Part shown: positions 8,511-51,913 of the stretch, piece after piece | Layout: every line of letters begins with the position of its first letter | How positions within the stretch are numbered: position 1 is the first letter of the stretch | Assembly: GCF_003751945.1 (NCBI RefSeq) | Contig: NZ_RJKL01000001.1 | Location: 682,001 to 746,000 of the forward strand | DNA length: 64,000 nt | Reading direction: 5' to 3' | From: Couchioplanes caeruleus | GTDB lineage: Bacteria; Actinomycetota; Actinomycetes; Mycobacteriales; Micromonosporaceae | Position numbers and translations under genes: made by a program | The notes under the pieces: generated by a model | Databases searched by the model: none | Told to the model about the DNA's origin: nothing | The model's input: only the letters and a program-made list of their open reading frames with translations

Positions 8511-10631
8511 TCAGCGTCCTGCCGCGTGGTGCCAGGAGATCTGCTGATCGCCGAGCTGGGTGGGATAGACCACCACCTCGTCGAGGGTGCCGACGAAGTA
8601 GTCGTTGGCGGGACGGTTCGGCCGGCCCCAGAGCTGTGCGCCACCCCATCGCCAGTATCCGGTGAACGCCGGTCCGGTCGTGACCGCGGGGTTGGTGGCG
8701 ACGCGGACGCCGTCCACGTACAACTTCAGCCCGGCGGGGCCCACGCTGGCGGCGGCATGGTGCCACTGCGCGTCGTCGTAGGCGACGGGACTGCGCACGT
8801 TGCCGGTGCCCACGCCGAAGCTGAGCCGCCCGCCGGAGTCAAGGTAGAGCATCCGGTCGGAGGTGCCCGTGTTCGGCGAGGTCGGGTGGGAGCTGAAGCC
8901 GACGAGATGTCCCCCGGCGCCGGTGCCGGCGCGGAACCACACCTCGACCGTGCAGTTTCCCGCGTCGGCGAACGCCGTGTTGTTGTAGGCGCTGATCCAG
9001 CCGCCGAAGGCGAGGGCGGAACCGGCGGCCTGCCCGCGCAGGGCACCGGGGACTCCGCCCGTCATGCCGGGTCCGGTCTGCACATCCCGGTCCTTGTACA
9101 GCCGGGTGATCTGGACCGCGCTGAGCGCCCGCGGGTAGACGCGCACCTCGTCGACGGCGCCGCGCCAGAAACCCAGGGGGCCGCCGTTGTTCAGCTGACG
9201 GCCGAAGCTCAGCCCTGCGGTGGCCTTCCAGGAGGCCGGCAGAGACTGCTCGTCCTCCTTCACCGTGTTGATGTAGAGCTGGCCGCTGGTCGGGGTGCGG
9301 ACCACGGCCACATGCGTCCACTGGCCCGCCTGCGGCACGGACGTGCCCTCCAGGCGCCCGCTGGCGGCGTCGGCCACGTCGCCGGCAGCGAACCGCACCC
9401 GCCAGGTCCGGGCGGCGGCGTTGGCCTGGATGGCGAAGGCGCTCTGAAGGCTGCCCTCGGCGGCGACCGCGTTGCGGTCGATCGAGGTGTCGGTCAGGTA
9501 GAGCCAGGCGGCGACGGTGTAGGTCTGCTCGGTGTCGATCGGCACGCTGGACGTCAGCGCGTAGTCGCCGTTCCCGTCGAGCTGCAGCGCGTTGCCGGCG
9601 TGGCCGGACCCGAAGGTCGCGTCGCCGGCCAGGGTCGCCGTCTGCCCGACCACGTCGGCGGCGGTGGTGGCGCCGGGCGCCTCGTTCATACCCCAGTGCC
9701 CGGTGGCGGCGTCCTCGTACAGGCCCTTGATGTCGGCGGCGCTCACCACCCGGTTGTAGGTGCGGACCTCGTCGACGGCGCCCTTCCAGAAGTTGGACCA
9801 GGCGCCGTTCGCCTTCACCCGGCCGACGGTGAGCGGTCCGGTCGCGTTCACAGTGGCGGCGTACGCGACGTTGGCCTCCGGCTTGCCGTTGACGTACAGG
9901 TGGACCCTGCCGGCGCCGATGTCGCGCACCGTCGCCAGGTGGACCCACGTGTTCAGCGCGACCGCGGTGGTGGAGTTGACCCGGACGCCGGTCGGGTTGT
10001 CGGTGTCGGCGACGTAGCGCACGGACCAGCAGCCGCAGGCCCCGGTGCCGCTGACGAAGGCGTGGATGCCGAAGACGCTCTGCCGGGCACCCTCCTGGCC
10101 CATGGCGTACCGGTTCTGCGAGGCGTCGGTCAGGTAGACCCAGGCCATCGCCGTGTAGCTGCCCGTGGTGGTGAGCGGGGGGACGTCGGACTCGACGTAG
10201 TCGTCGACGCCGTCCAGGGCGACGGCGGCGGTGCCCATCCGGCCCGGCTTCTGCCACGAGGCGCCGTGCAGGGTGCCCTGGTTCACGACGCCGGAGTTGT
10301 CGGCGGCGACGGTGCCGGAACCCTCCTCGAACGCCCACACGGTGCTGGGGCCGTTCGTGGCGCCCGTGTTCGTGCCGGGCCGGGCGTTACCCGAGCTGTC
10401 CGCCACGGTGCCGTTGAGAGACGAGGTGAGCGCCTCCTCCTGGCGGTGGTACAGCGCCGGCCCGTCGGCCGCGATCGACTGCGTGAACCCGGGGAAGCCG
10501 GAGGCCGCCGCGAAGGTGCTGGCGAAGGAGGAGGTGGCGGCGGTGAACGCGGCGTGGGTCGTACCGAGCAGCATCAGCGGGACGAGCAGCAGGGCCGTCA
10601 GGAGCGGAACGCGCACGCGTGAATCGCCCAC
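8511..10631 (-). CDS. Exported protein with three LamG (concanavalin-like) domains
   Basis: The product is 706 aa from a GTG start with GGAGGG upstream. It opens with a signal-type helix (LLTALLLVPLMLLGTTHA) followed by AAFTAATSSFASTF, a layout seen in actinobacterial proteins handled by SipW-like peptidases. Three laminin-G/concanavalin folds follow, at about 90-305, 310-500 and 530-700. Each shows the D.VDDYVE or NGDYALTSS, Y.VAAW.YLTD and GAVDEVR.Y pattern. LamG_3 domains usually bind carbohydrate or surface ligands, and no enzymatic domain is attached. It is likely an extracellular adhesin or carbohydrate-binding protein. It shares an intergenic region with the divergent PadR gene. Confidence 0.8.
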   Translation of the reverse strand: MGDSRVRVPLLTALLLVPLMLLGTTHAAFTAATSSFASTFAAASGFPGFTQSIAADGPALYHRQEEALTSSLNGTVADSSGNARPGTNTGATNGPSTVWAFEEGSGTVAADNSGVVNQGTLHGASWQKPGRMGTAAVALDGVDDYVESDVPPLTTTGSYTAMAWVYLTDASQNRYAMGQEGARQSVFGIHAFVSGTGACGCWSVRYVADTDNPTGVRVNSTTAVALNTWVHLATVRDIGAGRVHLYVNGKPEANVAYAATVNATGPLTVGRVKANGAWSNFWKGAVDEVRTYNRVVSAADIKGLYEDAATGHWGMNEAPGATTAADVVGQTATLAGDATFGSGHAGNALQLDGNGDYALTSSVPIDTEQTYTVAAWLYLTDTSIDRNAVAAEGSLQSAFAIQANAAARTWRVRFAAGDVADAASGRLEGTSVPQAGQWTHVAVVRTPTSGQLYINTVKEDEQSLPASWKATAGLSFGRQLNNGGPLGFWRGAVDEVRVYPRALSAVQITRLYKDRDVQTGPGMTGGVPGALRGQAAGSALAFGGWISAYNNTAFADAGNCTVEVWFRAGTGAGGHLVGFSSHPTSPNTGTSDRMLYLDSGGRLSFGVGTGNVRSPVAYDDAQWHHAAASVGPAGLKLYVDGVRVATNPAVTTGPAFTGYWRWGGAQLWGRPNRPANDYFVGTLDEVVVYPTQLGDQQISWHHAAGR

Positions 10632-45654: not shown

Positions 45655-46710
45655 TCAGATGACGGTGGTGGCACGCCGGCGACGCACCAGCACGAGGCTG
45701 GCGATGCCCGCGCCGATCAACGCCAGGCCGGCGACGATGTACAGGGCGATGCCGGGGCCGGTGAGCGGCAGGCCGGTCCCCTGGTCGTCATCTCCGCCCG
45801 TGGTGTTCGAGACCGGGGCGGTGTCCGTGTCGGTCGTCTCGCCGCCCGTGGTCGGAGTGGTAGCGCCAGGGCCGGGCGCCGTGCCGGTGTCCGTGCCCGG
45901 GTTTGTTCCGGTGCCCGGGTTGGTCCCGGTGCCGGGGTTCGTTCCGGTATCCGGGTTGGTGCCCGTGCCCGGGTTCGTGCCCGTGCCCGGGTTCGTGCCC
46001 GTACCCGTGCCCGGGTTGGTGCCCGTACCCGTGCCGGGGTTGGTGCCCGTACCCGCGTCGGTGCCCGTACCCGCGTCGGTGCCCGTACCCGTGCCGGGGT
46101 TGGTGCCCGTGCCCGGGTTGGTGCCCGTGCCCGTGCCGGGGTTCGTACCCGTCGGGGCCACGCACACGCCCGTGATCTTCAGCGCGATCGGCTTGACGGC
46201 GTCCTCGATGCTCTCGCCGTCGGCGAGGTTGCGGTTGTCGAGAGCGGAGTTCGCTCCGGCCAGCTTCCAACCGGTCGGGAGGGTCAGCGCGACGGCGTCA
46301 CGGTCGGCGCCGAAGGTGAGCGTCATGGCACCGTTGAGCGCCAGTTCGGCGGGGAGCGCGCCGAGGTCGCCGGTGAAGATGACCTTGCCGGGTGTCGTCG
46401 GGTCGATGCCCCAGCCCGCCGCCGCCACCTTCGTGATGTCGGTGGCCTTCACGAACGAGGCGCCGAAGGTCTTGAACTTGCCGTTCTGCGCGGTGTCGAA
46501 CTTCCAGGTCTCGAATCCGGCCTTGGGTGCCGCGACACCCGAGCAGTCGGCGGGAAGGTCCTTTGCCGCCACGGGTTTGGTGCTCGCGAAGACCGCGAAC
46601 ACGGGCACCTCCGGGCCGGCTGCGGCCGCCGCCGGCGCGGAGAGGGATATACCTCCAGCGATGGCGACGCCTGTGGTCAACGCGAAAGTGCCGAGACGGC
46701 CGATCCTCAT
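45655..46710 (-). CDS. Cell-wall-anchored surface protein with LPLTG sorting signal
   Basis: The product is 351 aa from ATG 46710 behind GGAGGA. Signal peptide at 1-30 ([20 protein letters not shown]). Residues 31-190 are an unrecognised extracellular domain with two Cys (DCSGV and GVCVAPTG). About 190-290 is a Thr/Gly/Pro/Asn repeat linker built from GTNPGTGT units. The C-terminus has LPLTG, a hydrophobic helix and RRRR: a sortase (class E-like in actinobacteria) substrate layout. No sortase gene is in the window. It is probably anchored to peptidoglycan, with the globular domain displayed outward. Confidence 0.85.
45893..46149 (-). repeat. Coding tandem repeat of the GTNPGTGT linker
   Basis: About 85 codons repeat units encoding GTNPGTGT, with occasional NPDTGT or TDAGT variants. 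At DNA level the unit is GTGCCCGGGTTGGTGCCC-like on the plus strand. Slippage should make the linker length variable. Confidence 0.85.
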
Positions 46711-47205
46711 GATTCCTCCGGTACATCGATGATCAGGCGCAATTTGGCAGAGTGGCCGCGGTGGCGCAAGACCTGCAAACCGTCGGCGATAAGCTGCGAA
46801 TCGAATCAAGGTGGACAGATCGATGTACCGCCCGGGCGCTGCCCGGCACCATGGCCGCCGCGCAGAAGCGCTGGTCAGCCCCCCGACAGCCGGAGCCATC
46901 AGCCGGAGCGCGATCGTCCACGCGCGGCCGGCTCCGCCGTTTCGGTTCGCCGGAACTTATAGGCGAACCCCCTATGCCCGCGGCGGGCGACGGGCAGGGG
47001 TCGATCGCTACCTCTGCACGCAACGTCGCGGGACTGCTCTCGCAAATCGAAGACCCGCCACTGTGGCCGTGCCGACCGACTCGGCGGGACGATCTCGACG
47101 GGTCCGAGCGGCAAGTCGGGCGACCGCGACTCGCCGAACCCGGCCATCAGCGCTCACGGCCGCTGGGTCGCCCTCGGGTCGCGACCGGGTGCCCGCAACG
47201 CGTGC
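46711..47205. other. Intergenic region between the surface protein and the LAL regulator
   Basis: 495 bases with no convincing gene on either strand. It contains the promoter region of the LPLTG protein gene and the downstream region of the large regulator. An AT-richer patch with an imperfect palindrome (ATAGGCGAACCCCCTAT) lies at about 46959-46975. No function is assigned. Confidence 0.4.
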
Positions 47206-50199
47206 CTACTCCGCGCTCGCCTCCGCCGCCCAGCGGCCGGCCAGCGCGGTGCGTCCGGAGACGCCGAGCTTCGCGTACACCCGGCTCAGATGCACCTCGA
47301 CGGTCTTGGGACTCAGGTGCAGGCGGCGGCCCACCTCGCGGTTGGTCAGCCCGGCCGAGACCAGCGCGGCAACCTCCCGCTCGCGTCCGGTGAGCCCGAA
47401 GCGTCCAGCCAGGGAGCCCGCCACCGGCGTGGCGTCGGCACCGGGCCGCGGGCGACGCGCGTTCATCCGCCGCTCCTCCCGTGCCACGTGAGGGAGGAAG
47501 AGCCGCGCGTCACATCGTAAGAAGAGGGTCCGGGCGGCGTCGAAGTGCTCCCGTGCCGTCCCCGTGCTCCCTCGGGTCGCGAACGCGACCGCGGCGAGGA
47601 GGTGGGCTCGCCCGGCCTCCACCGCCACCCCGACGCGGGCGAACGCCGCCGCGGCCGCGAGGGCGAGCGGGGCCGCCGCAGCCGGGTCCACCGGCATCAT
47701 GGCCATCACGCGGGCGAGCTGCGCGACCGCGCTTCGCACCGGCGAGGCCACCGCGGCCGCGGCCGCCTCGGCCCGGCCGGCCCAGTCGGCGGCAGCGGCG
47801 AACCGACCGCGCCGGACCTCGGCCTCGGTGAGGAGCTGGTACATCACGGGCCGGTTCAGTGCCTCGATGGTGGAGAGCTCGGCGCCTCCGCCGGCGGTGA
47901 GGAGCAGCTCGATGCAGGTGTGCGGGTCGCCGGAGTGCAACATCGCCTGGCCGAGCATCGCCGCGGCCTGCCCACTCCGCCAGGTCAGCCCCACCGTCAT
48001 ACCTTCCTCGGCGGCCAGCGCCTCCTTGCCGAGCCGCAACGCCTCGTCGAGGTCGCCGCGCCAGGTGGTGATCCAGCAGCCGAAGGTCAGCGCCATGGTC
48101 CGCAGCTCGTCGCTGCCGGTCAGCTCCGCCGACTCCAGCCCGTCGGCGAAGCAGGCCATCGCCTCGGCCAGCTCACCGAGGTACGCGTGGACCATCCCGT
48201 GCACGGCGTTCAGCGCGGTGATCACATGGGTCTGTCCGCCGGCCCGGGCCAGCTGAAGGCCGCGCTCCAAGTGCCGGCTCGCCGCGGTCAGACGGTCGGC
48301 GGACGCCTCGGCCCAACCCAGCCACAGTACGGCCTCGAGGTTCCGGACCAGCTCCCCATCGGGCAGGGCGTCCACGAGCGCGGCCGCCTCGTCGAGACCC
48401 GTCCCGATCCCCGGCGCGGCCGGGTCCGCCCGCGGGGCTAGCGCGGCGATCGACAGCGCCATGGCGAGCAGCGCGTGATCATCGGTGCGCCGGGCGGCCT
48501 CGATCGCCTCCAGGGTCCGGGTACGCCGCGCGCCCGCTCCGCGTTCGACGACCTCGCCGGCGGCGAGAGCGACGACGAGGCCGGCCGCGGCATGGGGATC
48601 GTCATCGGCGGTCCGCCGCCACTCGCCCTCGAGCATCGCCCGGGCCTCGATGTGGCGGCCGAGAAGGCGCTCCACCGTCGCGCAGAACCGGACCGTCTCG
48701 GCGCGCAGACTGGTGAGCTGGGCCGGCAGGAGCCGTAGCACCTCGTGCAGCGTCATCCGGGCCCCGCGCAGGTCGCCTGTCGCCGCCCTGGCCTTGGCCA
48801 GCCTGCCGAGCAGATACAGGCGCTGGGGGGTAGTGGGTCCGGCGTCGGGCAGCAGCCTCAGGGCAGCCCGCAGGAAATGCCCGGCATCCGACGGTGTGGT
48901 GTGCAGCGTCGCCTCGGCGGCCTCCGCAAGCACCGCGACGGCCTCCAAGTCGCCGTCGACGGCGGACCGCTCGACATGGTGCGCGAGCTCGACGCCTGCC
49001 GCGCCTCGGGAGCGCAGTGCAGCCGCGGCGCGGCCGTGAGCCCGCAAACGCCAGCCCGGACCGGCGTCGCGGTAGGCGACGGCGCGCACCAGCGGATGCC
49101 GGAACCGGAACAGTCCGGCCGCCCGGCCCGGCCGCACGAGATCGCGGTGAACGAGCTCGTCGAGCGCCTCCAGCACCGGCTCCGTCGCCAGGGCGGCGGC
49201 CTCTGCCAGCAGCCCGGCATCGAAGTCGTCGCCGACCACCGCCGCAGCGTGCGCGACGGTGCGCTGGTGCGGGTCCAGCGCCGCCAGCTCGGCCGTGAGC
49301 GCCGCGTGGACCGCCGCCGGTAGCTCCCCGTCGCTGCCCGGCGGCGCCTCACCCGGGGCAGGGCCGTCGCGGTCCGCGCGCACCAACGCATCGAGGTAGA
49401 ACGGGTTCCCGGCGCTGGCCCGGTACAGGTCTTCCCGTCGGGCGCCGCTCAGCTCCGCCGGCAGCAGCGGTTCGGCCTCGGCGCGGCTCAGCGGGGCGAG
49501 CTCGAGCAGTTCGGCGGTTCCATCGGCCACCGCCCGACACAACGCCTGCCACAGCCTGGGACTGACCTGCCGGTTGCGACAGGACAGCGCGAGGACGAGC
49601 CGGGCGCGGGGCGGATGGCGCAACAGGTGATCGAGCAGCTCCACGGTGCCCTCGTCCGCCCAGTGCAGGTCGTCGAGGGCGAGTACCAACCCCGTCGGTC
49701 CAGCCGCGAGCTCGAGCAGGGAGCGGATCGCCCGGTGGAGCCGGTACCGCTCCACGTCGACCAGGTCGATCCGGGCGGCGGCGGAGATGGCCGGGAATGC
49801 GGCGGCGAGAAGCGTGAGCTGCGGTTCCCCCAGCTCGGCGAGGCGTTCCGGGCCCAGCTCGGCGAGGAGGTCGTCGAGGGCGTCGACGAAAACCCCGAAG
49901 GGCACATGGAGCTCGAACTCGGACGCCCGCGCCGAGCACAGAGCCAAGCCGGCTCTGCCGGCCAGCTCACCGAACTCGGACAACAGTCGGCTCTTCCCGA
50001 TCCCGGGGTCGCCGGCCACGCCGACACACCACGACCCGCCGGGCTCGACAAGCGCGCGGCGCAGGATGCCGAGCTCGCGGTCTCGACCGGCCAACAGACC
50101 GGTCGGCGCGCCGCCCCCCTGTGCATCCACCAGCGTCGCCCGCTCTTCCTGGTCCCGATCCGTCGATAGCGCCGCCCGCACGCGGCGGTAGCCACGCAC
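47206..50199 (-). CDS. Large ATP-binding LuxR-family (LAL) transcriptional regulator
   Basis: The product is 997 aa. The N-terminal AAA domain has Walker A GDPGIGKS (63-70) and a Walker B-like LVLALDDLHW. The middle is a long helical, TPR-like region. The C-terminus is a LuxR helix-turn-helix: FGLTGREREVAALVSAGLTN, REVGRRLHLSPKTVEVHL and SRVYAKLGV. LAL (MalT-like) regulators are ATP-dependent activators often tied to secondary metabolism or sugar use. It lies between the surface protein and the lanthipeptide remnant on the same strand; a link to the latter is possible only by position. The exact start is uncertain. Confidence 0.88.
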   Translation of the reverse strand: MRGYRRVRAALSTDRDQEERATLVDAQGGGAPTGLLAGRDRELGILRRALVEPGGSWCVGVAGDPGIGKSRLLSEFGELAGRAGLALCSARASEFELHVPFGVFVDALDDLLAELGPERLAELGEPQLTLLAAAFPAISAAARIDLVDVERYRLHRAIRSLLELAAGPTGLVLALDDLHWADEGTVELLDHLLRHPPRARLVLALSCRNRQVSPRLWQALCRAVADGTAELLELAPLSRAEAEPLLPAELSGARREDLYRASAGNPFYLDALVRADRDGPAPGEAPPGSDGELPAAVHAALTAELAALDPHQRTVAHAAAVVGDDFDAGLLAEAAALATEPVLEALDELVHRDLVRPGRAAGLFRFRHPLVRAVAYRDAGPGWRLRAHGRAAAALRSRGAAGVELAHHVERSAVDGDLEAVAVLAEAAEATLHTTPSDAGHFLRAALRLLPDAGPTTPQRLYLLGRLAKARAATGDLRGARMTLHEVLRLLPAQLTSLRAETVRFCATVERLLGRHIEARAMLEGEWRRTADDDPHAAAGLVVALAAGEVVERGAGARRTRTLEAIEAARRTDDHALLAMALSIAALAPRADPAAPGIGTGLDEAAALVDALPDGELVRNLEAVLWLGWAEASADRLTAASRHLERGLQLARAGGQTHVITALNAVHGMVHAYLGELAEAMACFADGLESAELTGSDELRTMALTFGCWITTWRGDLDEALRLGKEALAAEEGMTVGLTWRSGQAAAMLGQAMLHSGDPHTCIELLLTAGGGAELSTIEALNRPVMYQLLTEAEVRRGRFAAAADWAGRAEAAAAAVASPVRSAVAQLARVMAMMPVDPAAAAPLALAAAAAFARVGVAVEAGRAHLLAAVAFATRGSTGTAREHFDAARTLFLRCDARLFLPHVAREERRMNARRPRPGADATPVAGSLAGRFGLTGREREVAALVSAGLTNREVGRRLHLSPKTVEVHLSRVYAKLGVSGRTALAGRWAAEASAE

Positions 50200-50398: not shown

Positions 50399-50497
50399 TC
50401 AGGCAAATGACGTCTTGCAGGTCATCGGGCACGGGAACAGGCCGTTCTCGGGCTCCGGCTCCTCCAGCATCTGCAGGGCTTCGACATCGATCTCCAT
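50399..50497 (-). CDS. Lanthipeptide-like precursor peptide (32 aa)
   Basis: A 33-codon frame with an excellent ribosome site (AGGAGGT, 9 bases before ATG). The leader is acidic, with VEALQMLEE, the D/E-x-LQ-x-L type recognition seen in actinobacterial LanA leaders. The last 14 residues, GLFPCPMTCKTSFA, carry two Cys and three Thr/Ser able to form lanthionine rings. It lies downstream of a degraded LanC-like cyclase and a degraded radical-SAM gene on the same strand. The peptide itself looks intact, but its processing enzymes here are not. It is too short to be found by length-based gene calling. Class assignment is uncertain. Confidence 0.65.
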   Translation of the reverse strand: MEIDVEALQMLEEPEPENGLFPCPMTCKTSFA

Positions 50498-50632
50498 CGT
50501 CAATCACCTCCTCGTTCGGTCGTCGCGGACAGGGCGACATCGCAGTCGGCACACGGGGTGCTCGAACATGCGACGACGTCGGCTCACCGGGCGGTGTCGT
50601 GGTCACGGGATGCCGGAGCGCGCGTTCGCCTG

Positions 50633-51017
50633 TCAATCACTCCCCACGGCGGTGTACGAGGCCGGGAGCCACATCCGGTCACCACCGAACTCCAGCCGCA
50701 GGAGGAAGGCGACCACGCCGGCGAGGCCGGTGTTGTAGTCGGCGGTCACCGCGTTCAGGACCTCGTCCGGGGCGAGCATCCGCCCGTCGCGCAGGGCATG
50801 CCGGCGACACCGTGGGCGAAGCCGTAGTGAAAGAGACCGGCCAGCGTCGAGCTGAAGTCGGTGGGAATCGGCCAGACCAGGCGGTCGTCACGGTCGTCGG
50901 CCATGCCCAGGAGAGCGACGGCGACCTGCGGGGCGCGCTCCAGGAAGGCCGGGACCCCGGTGATTTCGTACGCCCGGAGCAGCGTGAAACCGCAGCCGGC
51001 CATGCCGTGGCAGACGT
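50633..51017 (-). pseudogene. LanC-like lanthionine cyclase domain, collapsed
   Basis: Reading the minus strand: DVCHGMAGCGFTLLRAYEIT, DRDDRLVWPIPTDFSS and LHYGFAHGVAGM are LanC-type alpha/alpha-barrel repeats. At about 50799 the frame changes to LRDGRMLAPDEVLNAVTADY, GLAGVVAFLLRLEFGGDRMW and a stop at 50633. The piece between, which should contain the WC.G zinc-ligand repeat, is deleted. The 5' part (dehydratase/kinase or earlier cyclase repeats) is missing too, replaced by a radical-SAM fragment joined at about 51018. It cannot encode a working enzyme. Confidence 0.7.
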
Positions 51018-51284
51018 CTAGAGCGTGACCGAGATACCGGACCGGGAGAAGCGTTCCGCGACCGCGAAGAGGTCCGGGACGACCAGCGGCTCACCGCCCG
51101 CGATGGCGATGTCACTCGGGCGCATGGCGATGAGGGCGTCGGCGACCCGCAAGAGGTCAGGCGCTCCGAGCTGGCGGGTGGGGCGGCGGCCGGACTCGGA
51201 GTAGCAGTGGATACAGCGCAACGGGCACGCGTACGTGATGTCCCAAATGACGTCCGACGGGACGCAGACCATCTCCACGAGCAT
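51018..51284 (-). pseudogene. Radical SAM peptide-modifying enzyme, N-terminal fragment
   Basis: From ATG 51284: VIWDITYACPLRCIHCYSES contains the CxxxCxxC iron-sulfur motif (CPLRCIHC) of radical SAM/SPASM maturases. Next comes DIAIAGGEPLVVPDLFAVAE, the GGEP motif. The frame stops with TAG at 51018-51020, right where the LanC-like sequence begins. Only about 88 of an expected 350-400 residues remain. The gene was probably fused to the cyclase remnant by one deletion. Confidence 0.7.
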
Positions 51285-51913
51285 TCCTCACAGGACCGGA
51301 ACGAGAGGTGCGTACCGGCGTTTCCAGAGTGCCGAAGGGTGCCACGCGCGGGTATAAGGAATCTCCCTACAAACCGACGTCGTCGATCTCCGCCACGCTT
51401 ACTGTGCCGAACAGGTCACCGACCTCGCCCTTCGACCGGCGTCACGGCGCCGAAGCGGCGGCGCCGGCCCAGTGGATACCCCCACCAAGGTCATTGCATG
51501 ATCGGCACACATCGAGCTAGGAGTCGCTCACCGCTTCGGCTTTGTTCGTCGGCAGCCGAGGCGTTCCAGGGCGCGGGTACGGGTGTACCGCCCGAGAGCC
51601 GACTCGGCCACCACGCTCGGCTCGGGAGGATCGGCGTACGGCCACGGCTCGTGCGGAGGCGCGGGATCGGTGCCTGGCCGTCGTTACCGTCGAACAGCAG
51701 ACCGTATGGGTCCGGGATACTGCCCCAACCCCGGATCGCCAGCGGCCGCTGCGGCACGGCGCCCCATCAGCTATCTTGGCCCGCCGGTGATGGGTCTGGC
51801 CCGGGCCGCCGCGACGACGGCTGGCCGCTTCGATGAATCTCAACGTCGCGCTTAGGTCGGCGGCCACCGAACCGGACGAGCATGCAGCAGCGAGGTTGCG
51901 CCGGTAGTTCAGA
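51285..51913. other. Intergenic region upstream of the lanthipeptide remnants
   Basis: 629 bases without a gene I can support. Frames on both strands are Arg/Pro-rich and resemble out-of-frame coding. It may hold the promoter of the former lanthipeptide operon and additional gene debris that I cannot identify. Confidence 0.4.

Follow-up and report, generated by a model that had tools for sequence, protein, structure and literature searches.

Background

When the precursor gene of a ribosomally made peptide looks intact while the enzyme genes beside it lie in pieces, which pathway has been lost, and what did its enzymes do to the peptide? This question is raised by a short locus of Couchioplanes caeruleus, contained in the 64,000-nucleotide stretch of DNA that was analysed here and is called the window below. 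On its minus strand, the N-terminus of a radical-SAM (rSAM) gene, a cyclase-domain piece of a LanL gene, a LanL C-terminus and a precursor gene follow one another from 5' to 3' (Table 1). LanL enzymes dehydrate Ser and Thr residues and close (methyl)lanthionine rings. A first-pass annotation of the sequence described a decayed lanthipeptide cluster that had once joined lanthionine cyclisation with radical-SAM chemistry, considered this combination uncommon and the precursor family perhaps undescribed, and expected intact versions in relatives.

According to a 2020 survey, radical-SAM enzymes occur among lanthipeptide clusters generally, whereas for class IV no secondary modification had been reported (PMC7268733). 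The pairing and the motif described below were not found in the excerpts of the open-access papers to which our literature search was limited (PMC7268733, PMC10206099, PMC11002830, PMC10373908, PMC8326336, PMC9576775, PMC10673953), and an rSAM family travelling with one short motif across lanthipeptide classes is apparently undescribed.

Results and discussion

Precursor and enzyme remnants

Table 1. Features of the relic, in order of transcription (coordinates of the window)
Feature	Position	Strand	Basis
rSAM N-terminal remnant with CxxxCxxC, start ATG 51284	51021..51284	minus	PF04055, 36.9 bits
Deletion junction 1, where the rSAM piece runs into LanL sequence at a TAG stop	51018..51020	minus	sequence and alignment
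LanL cyclase-domain remnant, model positions 600-674	50797..51018	minus	NF038150, 70.7 bits; PF05147, 28.2 bits
Deletion junction 2, two LanL parts joined out of frame	about 50794..50803	minus	alignment to intact LanL
LanL C-terminal remnant, model positions 808-851 of 851	50633..50800	minus	NF038150, 43.2 bits
Ribosome-binding site AGGAGG, 9 nt before the precursor ATG	50507..50512	minus	sequence
ALQxL class IV lanthipeptide precursor, intact-looking, 32 aa	50399..50497	minus	NF038157

The precursor, whose start codon is the ATG at 50497, is matched by the NCBIfam model NF038157 (ALQxL) with 26.3 bits against a cut-off of 19 and is therefore not a chance open reading frame. The idea of an undescribed precursor family in the first-pass annotation has to be given up, the leader being that of a catalogued class IV family; on sequence grounds the peptide is of this known type. 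Its core begins with FPC (NGL-FPC-PMTCKTSFA).

The rSAM fragment (51284-51018, 88 aa), which reaches 36.9 bits with the Pfam Radical_SAM model (cut-off 29.5), is 55-70% identical to intact relatives. Its frame ends exactly where LanL sequence begins, the TAG at 51020-51018 sharing its G with the codon GAC that opens the LanL stretch DVCHG. Because the rSAM enzyme of the intact cluster of Actinophytocola xanthii (L036) has Tyr at this position, the stop codon was probably created by the deletion. Measured against the same cluster, the gap at junction 1 comprises rSAM residues 87-348 and LanL residues 1-621 (about 2.65 kb) and the gap at junction 2 LanL residues 697-832 (about 135 codons, about 0.4 kb). 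The second gap takes in the motifs WCSG (749) and CHG (795), which we take, from NisC, to be zinc-ligand motifs, and with both segments gone the presumed zinc site of the cyclase is absent from the window. Only two cyclase-domain pieces of LanL are retained, in different frames, and the class IV model NF038150, with which the LanL of an intact relative (L046) reaches 944 bits, scores best for both; this speaks against a class I or class II LanC and marks the enzyme remnant, to judge by these matches, as a probable class IV LanL. The C-terminal piece matches the LanL of L036 at 62%.

The comparison upholds what had first been read from the letters, namely an rSAM frame stopping exactly at the start of LanC sequence (about 51018), LanC parts fused out of frame (about 50799), a domain deprived of its (presumed) zinc ligands and at least two deletions. 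The putative original order of the cluster is rSAM - lanL - lanA. An assembly collapse instead of true deletions may underlie the junctions; the assembly amounts to 8.43 Mb in 2 contigs and is listed as 100% complete.

State of the relic in its own genome

A search of the own genome with PF05147 (E up to 0.001) gave four matches at three places, the relic and two class III LanKC genes, and no other LanL or free-standing LanC. The window precursor is therefore without a partner of its class, and for this reason the relic is in all likelihood dead. The same genome holds an intact-looking class III cluster (L057, C1:1442500-1462400) with an rSAM gene, a LanKC scoring 1004 bits with NF038151, a precursor carrying AWPC (9561-9659, minus strand) and a pair of genes grouping with the L046 ABC transporters. 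It is conceivable, and very improbable, that this cluster modifies the orphan precursor in trans: an intact-looking rSAM gene and LanKC with an AWPC precursor exist in the genome and the reading frame and ribosome site of the window precursor are intact, but its class IV ALQxL leader differs from the class III leader, and the search just described found no LanL to take the place of the broken one.

No S9-peptidase or ABC-transporter remnants were found in the window with the L046 proteins as queries (E 0.01). A remnant at 51571-51764 (ORF 51491-51757, minus strand) resembles the 3' portion of a gene that is whole in genome G006 and encodes a PRiA4_ORF3-like protein of 202 aa; its DNA identity is 86% to G006 and 78% to another site of the own genome. 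The stretch around the relic looks like a zone of gene decay. A large LuxR-type regulator with an AAA_16 domain (47206-50199, minus strand) directly adjoins the relic, and relatives of it grouped by blastp adjoin LanL in L043 and L050. Beyond it, a secreted-looking protein (45655-46899, minus strand) with a long PGTGTN-type repeat and an LPLTG-like C-terminal end had no Pfam match.

Intact relatives and spread of the rSAM family

Among 354 genomes of the host family, the own genome being one of them, the LanL piece was found in 26 (E up to 1e-8) and the rSAM piece in 32 (E up to 1e-10). LanL and rSAM share one cluster in six genomes, and A. xanthii makes a seventh, so that the expected intact versions do exist; together with the relic pieces they substantiate a pathway that once united lanthionine and rSAM enzymes. 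A scan of genome contigs for relatives yielded two loci, and no relative of the rSAM enzyme was found among viral contigs or plasmids. With a profile built from 17 members, the family was detected in five of the 394 genomes, the own one among them, that represented the class at large, in 26 of 297 genomes of a second family and in 1/150 and 1/35 genomes of two others. The combination is thus uncommon across the class, as had been supposed, yet it recurs, as in that second family.

A typical intact cluster, according to family scans on L046, contains rSAM, LanL, the precursor, an S9 prolyl oligopeptidase and ABC transporters, in an order that is not fixed between clusters. These clusters resemble the class IV ALQxL systems (NF038157/NF038150; venezuelin, SflA type) in leader, LanL, S9 peptidase and transporters, and differ from them by the additional rSAM gene and by a core starting with an aromatic residue, Pro and Cys; the window differs further in that its LanL and rSAM are broken. 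Members of the rSAM family have class IV LanL or class III LanKC as neighbours and, in one case, class I LanB/LanC (L098). LanL or LanKC lies within 10 kb in 35 of the 50 rSAM loci examined and LanB/LanC in one further. The class III lanthipeptides (LanKC, NF038151) share the rSAM family and the motif with the relic in 12 loci, one of them the cluster of the own genome, but have another leader and another class of synthetase.

Fifteen rSAM loci showed neither LanL nor LanKC in the stretch fetched: L098 is the class I case, L162 has a motif-bearing precursor, and no precursor was found in the other 13 (L102-L110, L153, L172, L174, L176). L103, L109, L110, L174 and L176 form a separate, more distant rSAM clade, in which the rSAM genes of L103 and L110 adjoin adenylation-domain (NRPS-type) genes. 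L102 belongs to the same clade as L104-L108, six loci without a recognised precursor, and its rSAM gene adjoins two ABC transporter genes (gene families were tested in L102 only). L036 has two rSAM genes, 59% identical; the recognised precursor follows the first of them, at a distance of 4.6 kb from LanL.

Sampling of loci and precursors

The hypothesis that a core-start motif accompanies the rSAM gene was first formulated as Phe/Tyr-Pro-Cys from the initial precursors and later widened to F, Y, W and H. Afterwards, 29 further rSAM loci and class III controls were fetched and their precursors sought by leader pattern; six of the 29 gave no precursor and one (L164) only a motif-directed one, which leaves 22 counted. 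Candidates were short open reading frames with the leader pattern, a ribosome site, few Arg and a leader not more basic than acidic; at least one Cys was demanded, except in class III controls, and L040 and L049 came from a search demanding at least two. Likely precursors were picked by eye from the candidate lists. One row each of L054 and L156 and nine further rows, none with the motif, were dropped as unlikely, as was a 21-residue hydrophobic ORF of L171 ending in RFPC, which came from a motif-directed search. For L194, L195, L199, L200 and L203 one peptide each was typed, the remaining listed peptides being also without the motif; the control peptide of L203 has no Cys at all. Of 41 LanKC matches listed, 30 were made into loci and examined. 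The 24 counted class III controls that had 1.5-kb flanks were free of rSAM by a search at E up to 1e-10 in which no more than 15 candidates were scored in any genome. The search for precursors gave none in 15/50 rSAM loci, 5/19 class IV loci without rSAM and 2/27 class III loci without rSAM. The motif-blind set leaves out the window, L098, L164 and L099, which were known beforehand or came from motif-directed or mixed searches.

A tripeptide motif that follows the rSAM gene

A precursor was recognised in 36 loci with rSAM, the window among them, and in 35 of these the motif [FYWH]PC stands at the core start; it does so in none of the 39 loci without rSAM. The contrast persists in the motif-blind set (31/32 versus 0/39) and among the loci fetched after the hypothesis had been noted (21/22 versus 0/24); Fisher values for this association ignore relatedness and are not to be taken as probabilities. 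After deduplication at 60% identity, 14 of the 16 peptide clusters with rSAM carry the motif throughout, one is mixed and one is without it, compared with 0/27 peptide clusters lacking rSAM. Taken separately, class IV gives 22/23 against 0/14 and class III 12/12 against 0/25, with leaders and synthetases that differ between the two classes. The class I locus L098 also carries the motif, having been retrieved by a motif-directed search. The ring residue is Tyr 14 times, Trp nine times and Phe six times in class IV; His nine times, Trp twice and Phe once in class III; and Tyr once each in class I and in L162 (class presumed IV).

L171 is the one locus that has rSAM but not the motif; its core retains Trp-Pro, followed by Gln instead of Cys. 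One of three paralogous peptides of L157 is also without the motif (LMAC). Partial forms occur in the absence of rSAM: four such peptides have Pro-Cys without a preceding ring residue and three have [FYWH]P without Cys, among them that of L037 (YPP), whose LanL is close to that of L036. What distinguishes the rSAM clusters is therefore the complete tripeptide. An S9 match is present in 18 of the 21 class IV rSAM loci having a precursor, but the motif cannot be put down to this peptidase, since none of the eight class IV loci with S9 but without rSAM carries it. The motif follows the rSAM gene, and neither the lanthipeptide class nor the S9 peptidase.

How often the two were gained or lost together was examined on quick trees without bootstraps. 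The LanL tree, which spans 35 loci, shows six changes of the rSAM label and five of the motif; the labels differ only at L171, and well-supported branches force only two of the six rSAM changes. The LanKC tree (37 loci) has one change of each. At least five switches of lanthipeptide class are seen on the rSAM tree, few of them being forced by supported branches. Independent evolutionary co-changes are thus few, and an independent-pairs test on supported branches is out of reach of significance. The paucity of such changes suits another explanation, in which a sub-lineage uses the motif as a protease or export signal and the motif only hitch-hikes with the rSAM gene, as does the presence of S9 prolyl oligopeptidases in many class IV clusters. 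We regard this as decidedly improbable: besides the class IV loci with S9 but without rSAM, which all lack the motif, the 12 class III rSAM loci all have it and show no S9 match, and three lanthipeptide classes whose leaders differ possess it. The strongest argument for a functional link is indeed that lanthipeptide classes with different leaders have the motif in common only where they have the rSAM enzyme in common, the class I part of this argument being the one motif-directed case. We conclude that the rSAM enzyme most probably acts on the aromatic/His-Pro-Cys motif. That the window holds a class IV relic with such an action on the motif, whatever its chemistry, is likewise probable, if a little less firmly so.

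Features of the rSAM enzyme and its possible chemistry

Lengths of 333-365 aa were measured for the 51 rSAM proteins collected. Among the 46 outside the divergent clade, the Cys triad of the cluster is present in all 46 and C175 in 44, 27 have a further Cys at position 161 (L036 numbering), and SPASM cysteines are not conserved. The conserved ligands expected of the SPASM/twitch auxiliary clusters of triceptide and sactipeptide enzymes are thus absent from the family. Three members gave sub-threshold NCBIfam matches only, the best being mycofactocin maturase (85-112 bits versus a cut-off of 265), and the nearest solved sequence is that of the sactisynthase SkfB (6efn).

In the mechanism we favour, the LanL of an intact cluster would make (methyl)lanthionine rings, and the dedicated rSAM enzyme would modify the tripeptide at the core start by linking the ring of residue i, be it aromatic or imidazole, to the Cys at i+2; in the window, deletions took most of both enzymes and spared the precursor. 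The analogy is with the three-residue cyclophanes of triceptides: their rSAM enzymes are described as joining a ring carbon (of Trp, Phe, Tyr or His) to the beta-carbon of the residue at i+2, and the F/Y/W/H set and the i/i+2 spacing of our motif agree with these known cross-links (PMC11002830). The middle residue is here Pro, the partner Cys and the peptide a lanthipeptide, unlike in triceptides. Moreover, three-residue cyclophane enzymes are described as containing SPASM or SPASM/twitch domains (PMC11002830), whose ligands the present family does not have; at most it may therefore be said to work like them, and it does not belong to the triceptides. A ring-to-Cys cross-link as the product is put forward tentatively, at somewhat less than even chances. 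A little more guarded is the wider proposal that an undescribed rSAM family free of auxiliary clusters makes this cross-link on the motif in class I, III and IV clusters alike, giving lanthipeptide-cyclophane hybrids.

The main rival to the cross-link is epimerisation, in which the enzyme would abstract an alpha-hydrogen within the motif and the lone conserved Cys would return hydrogen from the other face, leaving a D-residue. This reaction requires no auxiliary cluster, and the one near-invariant Cys beyond those of the cluster would suit it; proteusin epimerases are described as having a single cluster and depending on a critical Cys (PMC8326336). The family shares with PoyD the lack of auxiliary-cluster ligands (EpeE has a second cluster), and its one further near-invariant Cys may be the counterpart of a critical Cys in PoyD and EpeE/YydG; it departs from them by its aromatic-Pro-Cys substrate motif and by the want of any sequence match seen to an epimerase model. 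So strict a choice of F, Y, W or H is unexpected for chemistry at an alpha-carbon, no epimerase model was among the best 25 of the 39-46 NCBIfam families matched by each of three members, and C175 may, from its sequence position, sit on an outer helix. Epimerisation appears rather unlikely, though less so than the other alternatives.

A thioether of sactionine type, joining the sulphur of the Cys to a carbon close by, might be suspected from the constancy of Pro-Cys in nearly every motif, from SkfB as the nearest solved relative and from the sactipeptide maturase StsB among the weak NCBIfam matches. However, the SkfB and StsB matches span only the common rSAM core, far under the curated cut-offs, auxiliary-cluster ligands are absent, and the L171 core has Trp-Pro with Gln for Cys; we consider this chemistry improbable.

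Conclusions

The relic is real but ordinary: alone, it is a pseudogene cluster of small importance, and the valuable part is the recurrent rSAM system that it exposed. The lanthipeptide class (IV), the intact class III sister cluster of the same genome and the tie between the aromatic-Pro-Cys motif and the rSAM go beyond the first-pass annotation. The recurring rSAM-lanthipeptide pairing offers a three-residue signature, readable from sequence, that names both an enzyme and its likely substrate. The chemistry of an rSAM enzyme on Pro-Cys without auxiliary clusters is a mechanistic question of its own, and a tailoring enzyme effective across lanthipeptide classes would be useful for making bicyclic peptides. 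If true, the ring-to-Cys cross-link would be a secondary modification in a class, IV, for which none had been reported up to the 2020 survey (PMC7268733).
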